Origin: Chloroflexota bacterium
Lineage (GTDB): Bacteria; Chloroflexota; Anaerolineae; UBA2200; JACIWT01
Assembly (NCBI GenBank): GCA_014360825.1
Contig: JACIWT010000003.1
Span: forward strand, 62,001 to 126,000
Reading direction: 5' to 3'
DNA length: 64,000 bases
The notes beneath the pieces were generated by a model, which saw only the letters and a program-made list of their open reading frames with translations, was not told the origin of the DNA and did no database searches. Position 1 is the stretch's first letter, and each line of letters opens with the position of its first letter. This document shows positions 16,401-21,341 of this stretch, one piece after another. Position numbers and translations under genes: made by a program.

Positions 16401-17255
16401 TTGGCATTTTGGAGAGCACAGAAATCAGCGCAATTCGCAGGTAGAATAACCACTAAGCATGTGCTCGAGGGTTCGGAACGTGAACGCTGGGAAGCAATAG
16501 AGGCAGTTGGACATAACTTGGATGCCGAGTGGGTGGGGGCACTGGTCAGTGTCTTGGGTGACCCAAGCCCCGTTTTGCGCTGGGCGGCTGGTGTCGCGCT
16601 ATCGTGCTCGCGGCCTCGCAATGTATTAGAGCGGCTTGTGGCGATGGCGAGTAGAGGCAGTGTTTATCAGCGAGCCAGTGTAGCCGATGCGTTGGGAATG
16701 CTTGGAGACCCCAGCGCCATCGCCCCGCTCTGTGCAGCCCTCAAAAGCCGTAGCGAATTGGTGCGCTGGAGTGCGGCGGAAGCCTTGGCTAAACTGGCCG
16801 ATGAGCGCGCTGTGCCTGCCCTCATTCGTGCTTTGCAAGATGATTCGATGTGGGTACGCCGCGGCGCTGCAATGGCTTTGGGACACGCGGGTTCTGTGAG
16901 TGCAGTGCCAGCGCTTCTGGAACTTTTGCGTCACGATGTCCCGTTAGTGCGATCCGCCATAGCGTTAGCCCTCGGCCGTATCGGCGACACACGGGCTTTC
17001 GACGCATTGTTGCAACTCACCCACGATTCACATCCACAGGTACGCCGCGATGCGGCTCGCGCGCTGGGCATGTTGGGCGACGAACGCGCCCAGCATCGCC
17101 TCCAGATGCTCGGCGCTGATGAGACTCAGGTCTTCGGTCAATCTGTGGGCGCTGCAGCTGAATGGGCTTTGGCAGAGATCGAACGTCAGAAGCGACGCCG
17201 CGTGGGGTGGCGGCGAGTTTTTCTGAATGCCTTAACTGAGCGGTTGCTCGGATAG
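16401..17255 (+). CDS. HEAT-repeat protein
   Basis: A protein of 284 residues built almost wholly of helical repeats of about 31 residues. Examples are DALGMLGDPSAIAPLCAAL, EALAKLADERAVPALIRAL, MALGHAGSVSAVPALLELL, LALGRIGDTRAFDALLQL and RALGMLGDERAQHRLQML. These are PBS-lyase-like HEAT repeats, normally a protein-binding scaffold. The start is TTG 16401, with AGGAGG 4-5 bases upstream. The C-terminus ends in a basic, partly hydrophobic tail (KRRRVGWRRVFLNALTERLLG). Function unknown. Confidence 0.8.
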   Translation: MAFWRAQKSAQFAGRITTKHVLEGSERERWEAIEAVGHNLDAEWVGALVSVLGDPSPVLRWAAGVALSCSRPRNVLERLVAMASRGSVYQRASVADALGMLGDPSAIAPLCAALKSRSELVRWSAAEALAKLADERAVPALIRALQDDSMWVRRGAAMALGHAGSVSAVPALLELLRHDVPLVRSAIALALGRIGDTRAFDALLQLTHDSHPQVRRDAARALGMLGDERAQHRLQMLGADETQVFGQSVGAAAEWALAEIERQKRRRVGWRRVFLNALTERLLG

Positions 17256-17346: not shown

Positions 17347-18087
17347 ATGATTTACTGCCCTGCGTGTGGTACAGCGAACAGGGATGGCAGTCGCTTCTGC
17401 AATGAGTGCGGGGGGCGTCTGGACCAGAGCATTGGTCTCCTGTGCCCTAACTGCAATGCTTCCAATCCGTTGGGCACCTTGCACTGCAGCCAATGCGGTG
17501 CTCCACTAGTGCCTTCCACCAGTGGTTTGCAAGATCAGGCCGGTGAACCGGGCTATGAGGAAGCGCTTTCGGCCGAGACTCCCCCTTTGTCCCAAGAGAG
17601 CGAAGCAGTACCGGCTGTTTCACTAAAAGCCCTGCCTGAATGGCTATACCAAGAAGAGGATGAGACCGAAATCCCTGCTCCAGAGGCTCCGGTCGAGGAG
17701 GCGAGTGTGGACGTCTCCGTCCCTAATATTCCGGAAATGGTGTCGGAGGTTCATGCTAAAGCCCAACCTTCCTCTCCCACTCTATCGCTCTCATCTTCTG
17801 ACTTGGACCGGGCTCCTATTTCAGGCCCTCTGGCAGGCATTGCGGGTGTGCTCCCGTTGCCAGAAGAGTACGACAGTGCCCAGAGGTCACAACGTCTCAG
17901 CCCCGTGCAATGGTGGCCAAAGCCCACGACGGAAAAGACAGAGCCAAGACCTACGGCGGGCCGGGGTTCACGGGCAGAAAGTCTTGCGCCTGGGCTGATA
18001 GCCGTAGTAGTGGTCGTCATTCTTCTGGTGCTGGCCTTATTTGGGATACTCGTTGCTCAAGGGGTTATCCGTGTCCCGGGACGCTGA
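17347..18087 (+). CDS. Double zinc-ribbon protein with C-terminal membrane helix
   Basis: A protein of 246 residues. Two zinc ribbons occupy the N-terminus: Cys4-Cys7-Cys18-Cys21 and Cys33-Cys36-Cys47-Cys50. A long acidic, Pro/Glu-rich low-complexity region follows (about 60-200), then one hydrophobic helix near the C-terminus (about 215-238) and a short basic end. It is probably tail-anchored with the ribbons in the cytosol (inference). Its last 17 bases overlap the next gene, encoding a MutL-like ATPase. Role unknown. Confidence 0.75.
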   Translation: MIYCPACGTANRDGSRFCNECGGRLDQSIGLLCPNCNASNPLGTLHCSQCGAPLVPSTSGLQDQAGEPGYEEALSAETPPLSQESEAVPAVSLKALPEWLYQEEDETEIPAPEAPVEEASVDVSVPNIPEMVSEVHAKAQPSSPTLSLSSSDLDRAPISGPLAGIAGVLPLPEEYDSAQRSQRLSPVQWWPKPTTEKTEPRPTAGRGSRAESLAPGLIAVVVVVILLVLALFGILVAQGVIRVPGR

Positions 18088-19765
18088 TTCGATTCTACTT
18101 GCTGACATTGGGAATATCTGGACAAGGGCTTGGTTGCTCGATAAGGTGGGCAACGAGCATCGGTTGGTGGCTCGTTCGCGTGCGCGAAGTGTTCTGGGAG
18201 GGCCAGGTAGCGATGTGCGGGTGGGCTTGCGAGCGGCATTCCGAACTATAGAAAAGTACTCTGGCCGCCGCCTCACCTATGAGGGGGGCGAGCCAATCTC
18301 CCCGGAGGGGGCTAGCGGTGAAGGCGTGGACGCCGTTTTTATCACGGTAAGTGCGGACTGCCCGTTTCGCTTGACATTATTAGGTGGTGAATCCGACCAA
18401 AGCGTCGATCTTCTGCGTGCTGCTTTGGCGGAACTACCAGTGCTCTTGCATGATGTTATTTATCTCGAACGAGTTTCCACTGGGAGAATAGAGGACGCTG
18501 CAGGTTTTTTGGACCATCCGCCGGACCTGGTGCTCTTGACTGGCACACGACCCGATCTTATCTATGCGGGTGCTCGCCTATTGGCTGCCCTCTTCGCTGG
18601 CATAGAACCGAACCGCCGTCCAGCGACTCTCTATGTGGGCACACCTGAGGCATTGCAACAAGTGGCAGATCTGCTGACGGGTGTGGCGGACTACGTCGCC
18701 TTGGGTGAGGATGCACTCAAAGTCAGAGCACTGCAGCGGGAACTACATGACCGCTATAAACGAGCGTTGCTGCATTATTTTCCCGGCATGAGAGCGGTCA
18801 ATGGATGGTCTACAGCGCCAGTAAGGCCCAGTTACGAGAGCGTGAGAACGTTGGCAACGGCGCTGATGACACAAAGGAACCTGCCGCGTGGAGTTGCAGT
18901 GGCATATGTGGATGGAGCCTCCTGCACACTCGCGGTGATCCGGGATACAGAGCGGCTGATCGTCAGACCAGATGTCGGCTCAGAGTTGGTGCCCGTTGCT
19001 CCTGTGGACTTGGCTCGCTGGCTGCCTTTCACCGCGTCCGAAGACGAGATCGCGGTCCGTGTGGCAAATATGCGCACCCGTCCCGCCAGTGCTTCAGTGA
19101 CGAGTGAAGACATTTCAGTCGAGGCGGCAATGGCGCGTGAGATTGTACGACGTGCTGCGCAGGATTATGCAAATGATGCGGGACATAGTTTCGACCTGAT
19201 TGTGTTTGGTGGCCCGATAGTAGATGCCATTGGGAATCCGGCCTTGCTAACCCTTGTAGCATTAGATGCCCTTGAACCGGAAGGAGTGGGACGGCTGGTC
19301 CTGGATCGCCACGGTTTGTTGAGTTCGGCGGGCATTTGGGCAGCAATAGACCCTGCCGCTGCAGTTGATTTTCTAGAATGTGATGGGTTTCTGGATGTGG
19401 GGCCGGTTATCGCCCCGTTGGGACGTGGAAAAGTGGGCGCGCGCGCCTTATCCGTCGAGTGGATCTCAGCGGAAGGAGAACGCAAAAGAGAAAACGTGGC
19501 TTTTGGTTCGATTGCCACCATCCCAGTACACACCAGTGCCCCGATCTCTGTAGACCTGCGGCCTTCGCCTAGGTTTGACATCGGCCGGGCGCAGCGTGGA
19601 TGGGGTGGGACGGTCCGTCTAGTAGGTGGTGAATTGGGCCTTCTAATTGATGCGCGAGGCCGTCCGCTGACTTGGCCATCAAAAGGCACTCAAAGCCTGA
19701 TTCAACAGTGGCAGACGGCGGTAGAGATGGGATGTGGTGACCGTCTTTCCTGGGAGAACAAGTGA
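18071..19765 (+). CDS. MutL/GlmL-like actin-fold ATPase
   Basis: A protein of 564 residues. It resembles the glutamate mutase accessory protein GlmL/MutL family: ILLADIGNIWTRAWLLD at the N-terminus is an actin/Hsp70-type phosphate-binding motif. Later come VVTLTGTRPD-like VLLTGTRPDLIYAG, YVDGASCTLAVIRD and FDLIVFGGPIVDA. The start is GTG 18071 with AAGGGG upstream; extension to TTG 18041 is possible. In glutamate mutase operons the protein accompanies GlmS/GlmE, but neither is in this window. The protein is also longer than classic GlmL. The stop overlaps the next ATG (TGATG). Confidence 0.72.
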   Translation: MSRDADSILLADIGNIWTRAWLLDKVGNEHRLVARSRARSVLGGPGSDVRVGLRAAFRTIEKYSGRRLTYEGGEPISPEGASGEGVDAVFITVSADCPFRLTLLGGESDQSVDLLRAALAELPVLLHDVIYLERVSTGRIEDAAGFLDHPPDLVLLTGTRPDLIYAGARLLAALFAGIEPNRRPATLYVGTPEALQQVADLLTGVADYVALGEDALKVRALQRELHDRYKRALLHYFPGMRAVNGWSTAPVRPSYESVRTLATALMTQRNLPRGVAVAYVDGASCTLAVIRDTERLIVRPDVGSELVPVAPVDLARWLPFTASEDEIAVRVANMRTRPASASVTSEDISVEAAMAREIVRRAAQDYANDAGHSFDLIVFGGPIVDAIGNPALLTLVALDALEPEGVGRLVLDRHGLLSSAGIWAAIDPAAAVDFLECDGFLDVGPVIAPLGRGKVGARALSVEWISAEGERKRENVAFGSIATIPVHTSAPISVDLRPSPRFDIGRAQRGWGGTVRLVGGELGLLIDARGRPLTWPSKGTQSLIQQWQTAVEMGCGDRLSWENK

Positions 19766-20820
19766 TGACAGTGTGGCCTCTGGTGCGAGTGACACGGGCG
19801 CGGGTGCTGCCCGTGCCCGGCGAAGTGCAAGTGCAGGCGGGGCAGAACGTATCACCCGCGGATGTGATTGCCGAGACCGTTAACTCCGCACCAGCAGTGC
19901 TGATAGATGTAGCCCATGCGCTTGGCGTGGATGAAAAGGATGTCCTTCGCTTGATGCAAATACGCCCGGGTGAGGCGGTAGATCAAAGCGCGATTATAGC
20001 GTGCCGGCCGGATTTTGGTGGCTTGTACGTTCGGCGTTGCCGGTCGCCCGTGAAAGGGCGTTTCGTGGCACAGGCAGCCGGATGGGCGATTATCCGTCCC
20101 GATGGAGAGAAATACATCTGCACTGCCGGACTATATGGCGAGGTCATGCGCGTTATCCCTAACTACGGGGCTATCATCCGTGCCGATGTCGCGCGTGTTC
20201 GTGGCGTATGGGGAACCGGAGGTGAGGCACGCGGTCCCTTGGGTGTAATCTCGACCCGTCGCGGCGATATATTGTCGCCTGCCATGATCCACGAGCGACA
20301 CCGGGGATGCATTCTGTTAGTTGGCGCTGGGGTTACCAGGGAGGGCATGGAAGCTGCGCTGGCTGGGGGTGTGAAAGGCATTATAACCGGCAGTCTGGAT
20401 GCTGCCTGGTTGGGTACCGGAAAACTACCGCCTTTGCCGGTTATGATCACCGAAGGTTGGGGAGCACTGCCGATGGCAACCCCGATTTTCAACCTCCTGT
20501 GCGCTCTCCAAGGTCGCGAGGCGTTACTCATCGCTGTGCCCGTTGACTCTACTCACGGCACTGAGCCAGAGCTACTGGTCAGTCATGGTGCCGGCAAGCG
20601 CGCTGATGTGCCGCGCGAAGGAAATGAATCTTCGAGCACGCGAGTAAGAGCACCTGTGCGGCTGACGAGAGAACCTTATCTTGGCTTGATTGGTTGGCTG
20701 GAGGGATCTACTACTCGCCTCTCACGACTTGACCGATTTGGATACTACCAGGTAGTTGATGTAGTCTTAGGTGATGGCCAACGTATTACGGTGCCGACGG
20801 AGAACATCGAGTTCTTGTAA
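19765..20820 (+). CDS. Uncharacterised protein paired with the MutL-like ATPase
   Basis: A protein of 351 residues that I cannot assign. The N-terminal part (about 10-115) looks like a barrel-sandwich (lipoyl/biotinyl-like) fold: PGEVQVQAGQNVSPADVIAE, IRPGEAVDQ and a second hammerhead-like strand, but no lipoyl-Lys motif is evident. The middle has Gly-rich GVKGIITGSLDAAWLG, and the C-terminal 50 residues resemble an SH3/KOW-like barrel (YYQVVDVVLGDGQRITVP). It overlaps the MutL-like stop by one base, which argues that the two proteins are made in step. GTG 19762 is an alternative start. Confidence 0.6.
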   Translation: MTVWPLVRVTRARVLPVPGEVQVQAGQNVSPADVIAETVNSAPAVLIDVAHALGVDEKDVLRLMQIRPGEAVDQSAIIACRPDFGGLYVRRCRSPVKGRFVAQAAGWAIIRPDGEKYICTAGLYGEVMRVIPNYGAIIRADVARVRGVWGTGGEARGPLGVISTRRGDILSPAMIHERHRGCILLVGAGVTREGMEAALAGGVKGIITGSLDAAWLGTGKLPPLPVMITEGWGALPMATPIFNLLCALQGREALLIAVPVDSTHGTEPELLVSHGAGKRADVPREGNESSSTRVRAPVRLTREPYLGLIGWLEGSTTRLSRLDRFGYYQVVDVVLGDGQRITVPTENIEFL

Positions 20821-20867: not shown

Positions 20868-21341
20868 ATGGATATGGCCAATGTATTGCCTGATATCTCA
20901 CCGGAGGGAACTACCCCACCTTCGCGAGGGCGCAACTGGGGAGTAATTATCATTGCGATGGCAGTTGTTGTGGGCCTGATTTTGCTTGGAGCGTTAGGCG
21001 TAGCATTGTTCCTCCGCTCACGAGGGGGAATCTCTGCTATCCGCCTATTAGCAGCCACTCCTACACCGATGCCTACTTTCACTCAGATGCCTACTTTCAC
21101 GCCGTTGCGACCCACATTTACGCCCCTGCCTACTGTAACACCCACATCCGTGCCAACCCTTGAGCCAACGGCAACGAGGGTGCCCACTTTCACCCCCCTA
21201 CCACCGACGCTTACGCCAACACCACAGGCAGGTGAAGTCCCTAATACGGGGTTTGGCGACGCAGTATTATTTATCGGGGGTTTCGCGCTTGTAGTCGTCT
21301 TTTTCCTGGCGCGGCGGCTGCGGCTGAAGAGCAACTTCTGA
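20868..21341 (+). CDS. Small stalk protein with two membrane helices and LPXTG-like C-terminus
   Basis: A protein of 157 residues. A hydrophobic helix (about 25-48) is followed by a Pro/Thr-rich stalk (64-120), then VPNTGFGD, a second hydrophobic helix (about 130-148) and the basic end RRLRLK. The order (L/V)P-x-TG, helix, Arg-rich tail copies the layout of a sortase sorting signal. However, the motif has V for L and no sortase gene is in the window. GGAGGG precedes ATG 20868. Confidence 0.65.
   Translation: MDMANVLPDISPEGTTPPSRGRNWGVIIIAMAVVVGLILLGALGVALFLRSRGGISAIRLLAATPTPMPTFTQMPTFTPLRPTFTPLPTVTPTSVPTLEPTATRVPTFTPLPPTLTPTPQAGEVPNTGFGDAVLFIGGFALVVVFFLARRLRLKSNF

Follow-up and report, generated by a model that had tools for sequence, protein, structure and literature searches.

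What might a MutL/GlmL-like ATPase do when no glutamate mutase is encoded with it? This question is raised by three adjoining genes in a 64,000-nucleotide stretch of a Chloroflexota bacterium genome (assembly GCA_014360825.1, contig JACIWT010000003.1, positions 62,001 to 126,000 of the forward strand), which as a whole we call the window. The genes encode a zinc-ribbon (ZnR) protein, the ATPase and a partner protein (Table 1). As a preliminary description of this DNA had stated, they overlap by 17 bp (ZnR/ATPase) and 1 bp (ATPase/partner); the coordinates of the open reading frames (ORFs) bear this out exactly with the GTG and ATG starts. That description had also put forward that the three proteins could form a membrane-associated ATPase system not described before, a proposal supported by the transmembrane (TM) tether of the trio and by the membrane-protein genes of the full operon. 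We give an even chance to a reading in which the trio is a pared-down form of an envelope module widespread among bacteria and its ATPase a membrane-tethered nucleotide switch or scaffold. The module and its membrane link are well supported; its mechanism and function we infer. Three features go beyond the preliminary description: a conserved wider operon, a swivelling domain in the partner and a P-x-W-L (PxWL) motif.

A conserved operon around the ATPase and its partner

The trio is not a chance arrangement, because 177 of the 301 Chloroflexota genomes sampled carry the partner family, 7 of them with E-values of about 1e-4 to 7e-4 that are probably spurious. With these weak matches dropped, 170 of the 301 genomes match the partner, 179 the ATPase and 165 both (Fisher 3e-60, uncorrected for phylogeny). 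The ATPase profile picks up true GlmL as well (154 bits in G089), so a few of the 179 are GlmL. Among the matches listed, the partner gene stands directly after the ATPase gene in 108 of 135 genomes.

By cluster number, the module comprises the ATPase (c0), the partner (c1), a small helical protein (c17/c10) and four membrane proteins: c3, a DUF6754 protein (PF20539), the polytopic c4 and c5, and the ectodomain protein c2, which in Chloroflexota has the topology ZnR-TM-ectodomain-TM, having acquired there a zinc ribbon on the cytoplasmic side and a linker of repeated PxWL motifs. The genes for c3, c4, c2 and c5 precede the ATPase gene in 20 of 41 Chloroflexota loci, always in that order and on one strand; these loci (L032-L071) were selected largely on the partner and also supplied the profiles, so that the counts are not independent. 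DUF6754 and the ATPase also go together across genomes, with 65 of the 66 that have DUF6754 matching the ATPase profile. Some gene calls in the loci are simple longest-ORF calls.

With a pattern drawn from the ATPase's C-terminal extension, 523 relatives came to light among 566 stretches, their genomes spread over many phyla. The best 80 of the 523, chosen by the ATPase alone, make up a second set of loci (L072-L151, where L072 and L124 duplicate loci already in the first). The partner is also encoded in 53 of these 80 and c17 in 49, and 21 loci carry all four membrane genes in order, 16 of them outside Chloroflexota. The module was found in Planctomycetota, Armatimonadota, Bacillota and others, with the order c17-ATPase-partner-c3-c4-c2-c5 in Planctomycetota and Armatimonadota. 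The preliminary description had named the lack of a conserved neighbourhood as a sign against its proposal; such a lack is contradicted by the adjacency described above and by the ordered membrane genes in 20 of 41 and 21 of 80 loci.

Two arrangements in the second set are observations in their own right. Three loci from Clostridia/Bacillota (L078, L079, L108) have two ATPase-partner pairs in a row, possibly encoding a heteromeric ATPase. One cluster with 16 members, present in 15 of the 80 loci (L110, L120, L122, L127, L140, L142 and others), lies just upstream of c17-ATPase-partner; judging by its sequence, the protein resembles glycine dehydrogenase subunit 2. For the c2 ectodomain and c17, Pfam gave only weak single matches, and for the one c4 and the one c5 protein scanned it gave no family. 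Profile searches of the PDB with the ATPase, the c2 ectodomain and c5 gave nothing convincing.

Domains of the partner and family of the ATPase

The partner had been described as having a lipoyl-like (barrel-sandwich) fold without a lipoyl lysine and an SH3-like C-terminal end. The model and the homologue alignment agree with the former, and a KOW/SH3 domain was found where the latter was expected. Its AlphaFold model (pLDDT 90, pTM 0.74) contains a barrel-sandwich domain like that of NqrA/RnfC (residues 43-114, Z 7.8), a swivelling domain (residues 120-276; AF_0055, Z 9.8) and the KOW/SH3 domain (residues 290-352, Z 7.2-7.5). A Z below 8 is a middling match, and the barrel-sandwich and KOW assignments are backed by Pfam matches among 36 homologues (RnfC_N in 7, KOW in 9, NQRA_N in 1); a profile search adds Spt5 KOW at 7e-8. 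The window partner has no family match of its own in family-library scans, and when this single protein was searched against the genome contigs it gave 43 pattern matches and no relative. That the structure comparisons name no other fold is not evidence of absence. In the hairpin region (residues 78-106), lysine occupies any given column in at most 4 of 36 rows; an identity as a lipoyl or biotinyl carrier was rejected for want of a modifiable lysine at the hairpin. RnfC carries Fe-S cluster CxxC motifs, and CxxC is absent from the window partner sequence, on which ground membership of an Rnf complex was rejected as well.

The RnfC_N and NQRA_N matches, the NqrA/RnfC-like fold and the presence of two conserved polytopic proteins would also suit a full operon that encodes an ATP-energised transport or ion/electron complex, with c4 and c5 as the channel and the partner as an RnfC/NqrA-like peripheral subunit. 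This explanation survives best among the alternatives and is nonetheless unlikely: the window partner has no CxxC, the scanned c4 and c5 matched no Pfam family, and c3, c4 and c5 were not found in the window genome though the ATPase and partner persist there. Nor is any ASKHA ATPase known to power transport.

The ATPase matches PF13941, the MutL/GlmL family, at 61.8 bits against a cut-off of 27, and a label of "MutL" or GlmL-family taken from this match would be misleading. Its predicted structure (pLDDT 88.7, pTM 0.90) has an actin-like, two-lobed ASKHA fold, for which structure comparison names FtsA as the nearest (Z 13.5 over 274 residues, root-mean-square deviation 9.0); chain O of 3-methylbenzoyl-CoA reductase gives Z 13.0 over 214 residues with a deviation of 3.9, and PilM, acetone carboxylase, dehydratase activators and diol dehydratase reactivase are further fold neighbours. 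The family has a C-terminal extension of about 120 aa carrying D-x-R-G-R-P, whose D and R are present in 31 of 31 rows of the Chloroflexota set and 71 of 71 rows of the second set, and fall in a gap in all 6 GlmL rows. The D, G and T of the phosphate-1 motif (P1, ATP binding) are kept in at least 70 of 71 rows of the second set. In the window ATPase, P1 (DIGxxxTR) and the GG of the adenosine motif are present and the aspartate of the phosphate-2 motif (P2) is displaced by one residue.

An identity as GlmL, the glutamate mutase chaperone, was rejected. Against the NCBIfam GlmL equivalog the window ATPase reaches 11.9 bits, with a cut-off of 475 that 4 of 6 GlmL-type proteins of other Chloroflexota pass; one more comes close (437 bits), and the sixth (from G290) is nearest to the ornithine-degradation relative Or-4 and scores below the Or-4 cut-off. 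The 6 GlmL rows form one clade in the tree (100*) with the window ATPase outside it, in a quick-mode, midpoint-rooted tree whose long-branch warning advises caution. The mutase subunit that had been reported as absent from the window is indeed missing: GlmE (PF06368) has no match in the whole window genome. The ATPase is thus not a glutamate-mutase GlmL, since it misses the cut-off, GlmE is absent, and GlmL is without the extension and in a separate clade. One genome (G176) has GlmL adjoining GlmE and the ATPase-partner pair at a separate locus, and in G290 the GlmL-family gene and the pair are likewise at separate loci. A MutL-type match in G184 (L071) lies within a long ORF of 1268 aa, and no partner was found in that genome. 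The preliminary description had further named, as a sign against its proposal, mutase genes elsewhere with the trio dispersed in relatives. The mutase part did not stand, GlmE being absent here and passing its cut-off in just 4 of the 301 Chloroflexota genomes; the dispersal is real, in one lineage, with 27 of 135 genomes among the matches listed.

We find it doubtful, and rank it below the transport complex, that the ATPase is a GlmL-like chaperone or reactivase for another B12-dependent or radical enzyme presented by the partner. Such a role would fit the PF13941 match, the structural neighbours that include a dehydratase activator and a diol dehydratase reactivase, a glycerol dehydratase reactivase match by profile (0.0017) and the distant scores that as many as 23 of 31 homologues reach for the GlmL family. 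Yet even the best E-value of the 31 (4e-29) misses the GlmL cut-off that most controls pass, the constant neighbours are membrane proteins and no enzyme, GlmE is absent, and the ATPase family has its own extension and clade.

The reduced form in the window genome

The ZnR protein, rightly described before as tail-anchored, has one predicted C-terminal TM segment, preceded by a double zinc ribbon (Zn_Ribbon_1/DZR), an acidic linker with one LPEWL and a GPLAGIAGVLP motif. It matches the c2 profile at 3e-9. A GPLAG-type motif before the TM segment is common to this protein and five full-length c2 proteins, and occurs in 7 of 28 proteins in all, where shuffles expect 0.11. On these sequence features, the window ZnR protein is a shortened c2 without the ectodomain and the second TM segment. 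Short tethers with PxWL and a TM segment are also found in L042, L043 and L064, from other families.

DUF6754, to which c3 of the full module belongs, has no match in the window genome (97.9% complete, 64 contigs), and neither have c4, c5, c17 or the ectodomain, in searches that for these last four had no positive control alongside. The window trio is a minimal rather than a typical case of the module, its membrane core probably lost, and it shows which three parts can persist without that core.

Could the trio instead be a decaying, functionless remnant of the module in the window lineage? The membrane parts not found, the degenerate P2 motif and the long branch would agree with decay. Against it stand three intact, overlapping ORFs, matches of partner and ATPase to their own profiles over nearly full length, and the recurrence of the short PxWL and TM tether, which suggests a stable reduced form; we regard decay as improbable and place it after the reactivase. 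For the window ATPase itself, divergent and with an altered P2 motif, decay or a purely scaffolding role has to be considered as well.

Downstream of the trio, the protein of a possible fourth gene ends in an LPXTG-like sequence (VPNTG) that scores 15.6 bits for LPXTG_anchor, just under the NCBIfam cut-off of 15.9, and homologues of this protein come after the partner in several loci. A promoter and terminator scan gave a signal no greater than in shuffled sequence, and PADLOC, which covers anti-phage defence families, returned 0 matches for 8 proteins.

Table 1. The trio and its neighbours in the window
Feature	Positions	Strand	Basis and remarks
Tail-anchored ZnR tether, 246 aa	17347..18087	+	ATG start; start and ribosome-binding site; Pfam ZnR/DZR; c2 profile
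MutL/GlmL-like ASKHA ATPase	18071..19765	+	GTG start, 564 aa; 574 aa from TTG at 18041 (also open)
Partner, 352 aa	19762 (GTG) or 19765 (ATG)..20820	+	Model, structure comparison, homologue Pfam matches
Possible fourth gene, TM and Thr/Pro-rich protein	20868..21341	+	LPXTG-like end; homologues form cluster c6, 7 members
HEAT-repeat protein	16401..17255		Directly upstream of the trio

The tether motif, a possible mechanism and known systems

In Chloroflexota c2/ZnR proteins, PxWL is part of a repeat with the consensus [DE][LVI]P[DAE]WL[RQK]. The looser P-x-W-[LMIVA] has 263 instances in 24 of 28 c2/ZnR proteins, with 248 before the first TM segment, 0 after it and 15 in TM-less proteins. A stricter pattern gives up to 44 copies in one protein; at least two are present in 8 of 9962 and in 21 of 7751 ORFs of the loci, all of c2/ZnR type except an antisense reading (L059) and an ATPase tail (L056). 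The latter ATPase (L056:7326-9464) itself bears two PxWL motifs, in its C-terminal tail.

The repeats resemble the FtsZ tail (DIPAFLR); the FtsZ of the window genome ends DELDIPAFLRRNK. In the portions of the sources drawn on here, FtsA is described as binding the FtsZ tail via subdomain 2B (PMC9098913), and PilM as FtsA-like and binding a conserved PilN motif (PMC5805733). Least probable of the alternatives is a role in the control of cell division, in which PxWL would mimic the FtsZ tail and the module would bind FtsA or further readers of that tail: the resemblance to DIPAFLR speaks for it, as do the several proteins that read the FtsZ tail according to the portion of PMC8669495 drawn on, whereas the likeness is not strong when set against other ORFs, the trio showed no linkage to division genes and the repeats are absent outside Chloroflexota loci.

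In the reading that we prefer, that of a membrane-tethered switch or scaffold, the ATPase would be nucleotide-driven and of the FtsA/PilM type, not an enzyme reactivase. It would dock at the membrane by short tail motifs of the c2/ZnR tether, in the manner of FtsA-FtsZ and PilM-PilN, and the partner would connect it with a client or with the core of membrane proteins. Binding and hydrolysis of ATP would then alter tether binding and, with it, the assembly or activity of an envelope complex. The window genome would have lost the membrane core and kept the tether, ATPase and partner. FtsZ-tail-like docking via PxWL is put forward here as a hypothesis.

Several findings weigh against this preferred reading. 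Both structure models are of single chains, the ATPase alone and the partner alone. The FtsZ likeness is statistically weak: the FtsZ score is reached by 11 of 1000 FtsZ shuffles and equalled or exceeded by 9 of the 51 ORFs in the window, one of which is the tether. PxWL occurs just once in the window tether, only 23 of 36 c0 loci have a ZnR gene upstream, and two PxWL copies occur in no ORF of the non-Chloroflexota loci. Since PxWL and the zinc ribbon are Chloroflexota features, PxWL docking cannot be the ancestral mechanism. The window ATPase is divergent (end branch 3.05 in the tree), and this divergence together with the shifted P2 aspartate implies that it may not hydrolyse ATP. Lastly, partner and ATPase lie apart in the 27 genomes mentioned above, of which 26 belong to families f24, f34, f60 and f63, while in G041 contig ends interrupt the arrangement. 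Where such loci were read, the separated partner sits beside response-regulator genes. In five such loci (L044, L046, L048, L055, L068) it is followed by the response-regulator protein c11, in three with the c13 regulator/kinase between.

A wider conjecture, which we hold to be about as unlikely as the transport complex, is an actin-like envelope machine of many phyla. Its ASKHA ATPase would assemble under the membrane, in Chloroflexota via a multivalent, FtsZ-tail-like ZnR tether, and the partner would pass its nucleotide state on to DUF6754 and an extracytoplasmic domain.

The individual domain folds are known, and the assembly matches no nameable system; no description of the module was found in the open-access literature, and it may have been named elsewhere. 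The module order, kept across distant phyla, points to a shared, unnamed cellular function, and the module places DUF6754 together with several unnamed families in one context. The PxWL motif lends itself to a direct binding experiment.

Four known systems share parts with the module. The partner has the barrel-sandwich fold of RnfC/NqrA, with RnfC_N recognised in homologues and no Pfam match in the window member; unlike RnfC/NqrA, it has no Fe-S CxxC and continues into the swivelling and KOW domains. The ATPase has an ASKHA-type domain and the PF13941 match in common with GlmL/MutL, but it comes without mutase genes, has the DxRGRP extension and is linked to the partner and to membrane proteins. 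The PilM-PilN pair likewise involves an FtsA-like ATPase fold, there binding a cytoplasmic motif of a membrane protein; in contrast, no pilus genes were recognised in the loci, and the partner and membrane proteins are unrelated by family search. FtsA-FtsZ is similar in two respects, FtsA being the nearest ASKHA fold to the window ATPase and the tether motif resembling the FtsZ tail. Unlike in that system, the ATPase has no FtsA family match, and the module carries its motif as repeats in a membrane-anchored ZnR protein.

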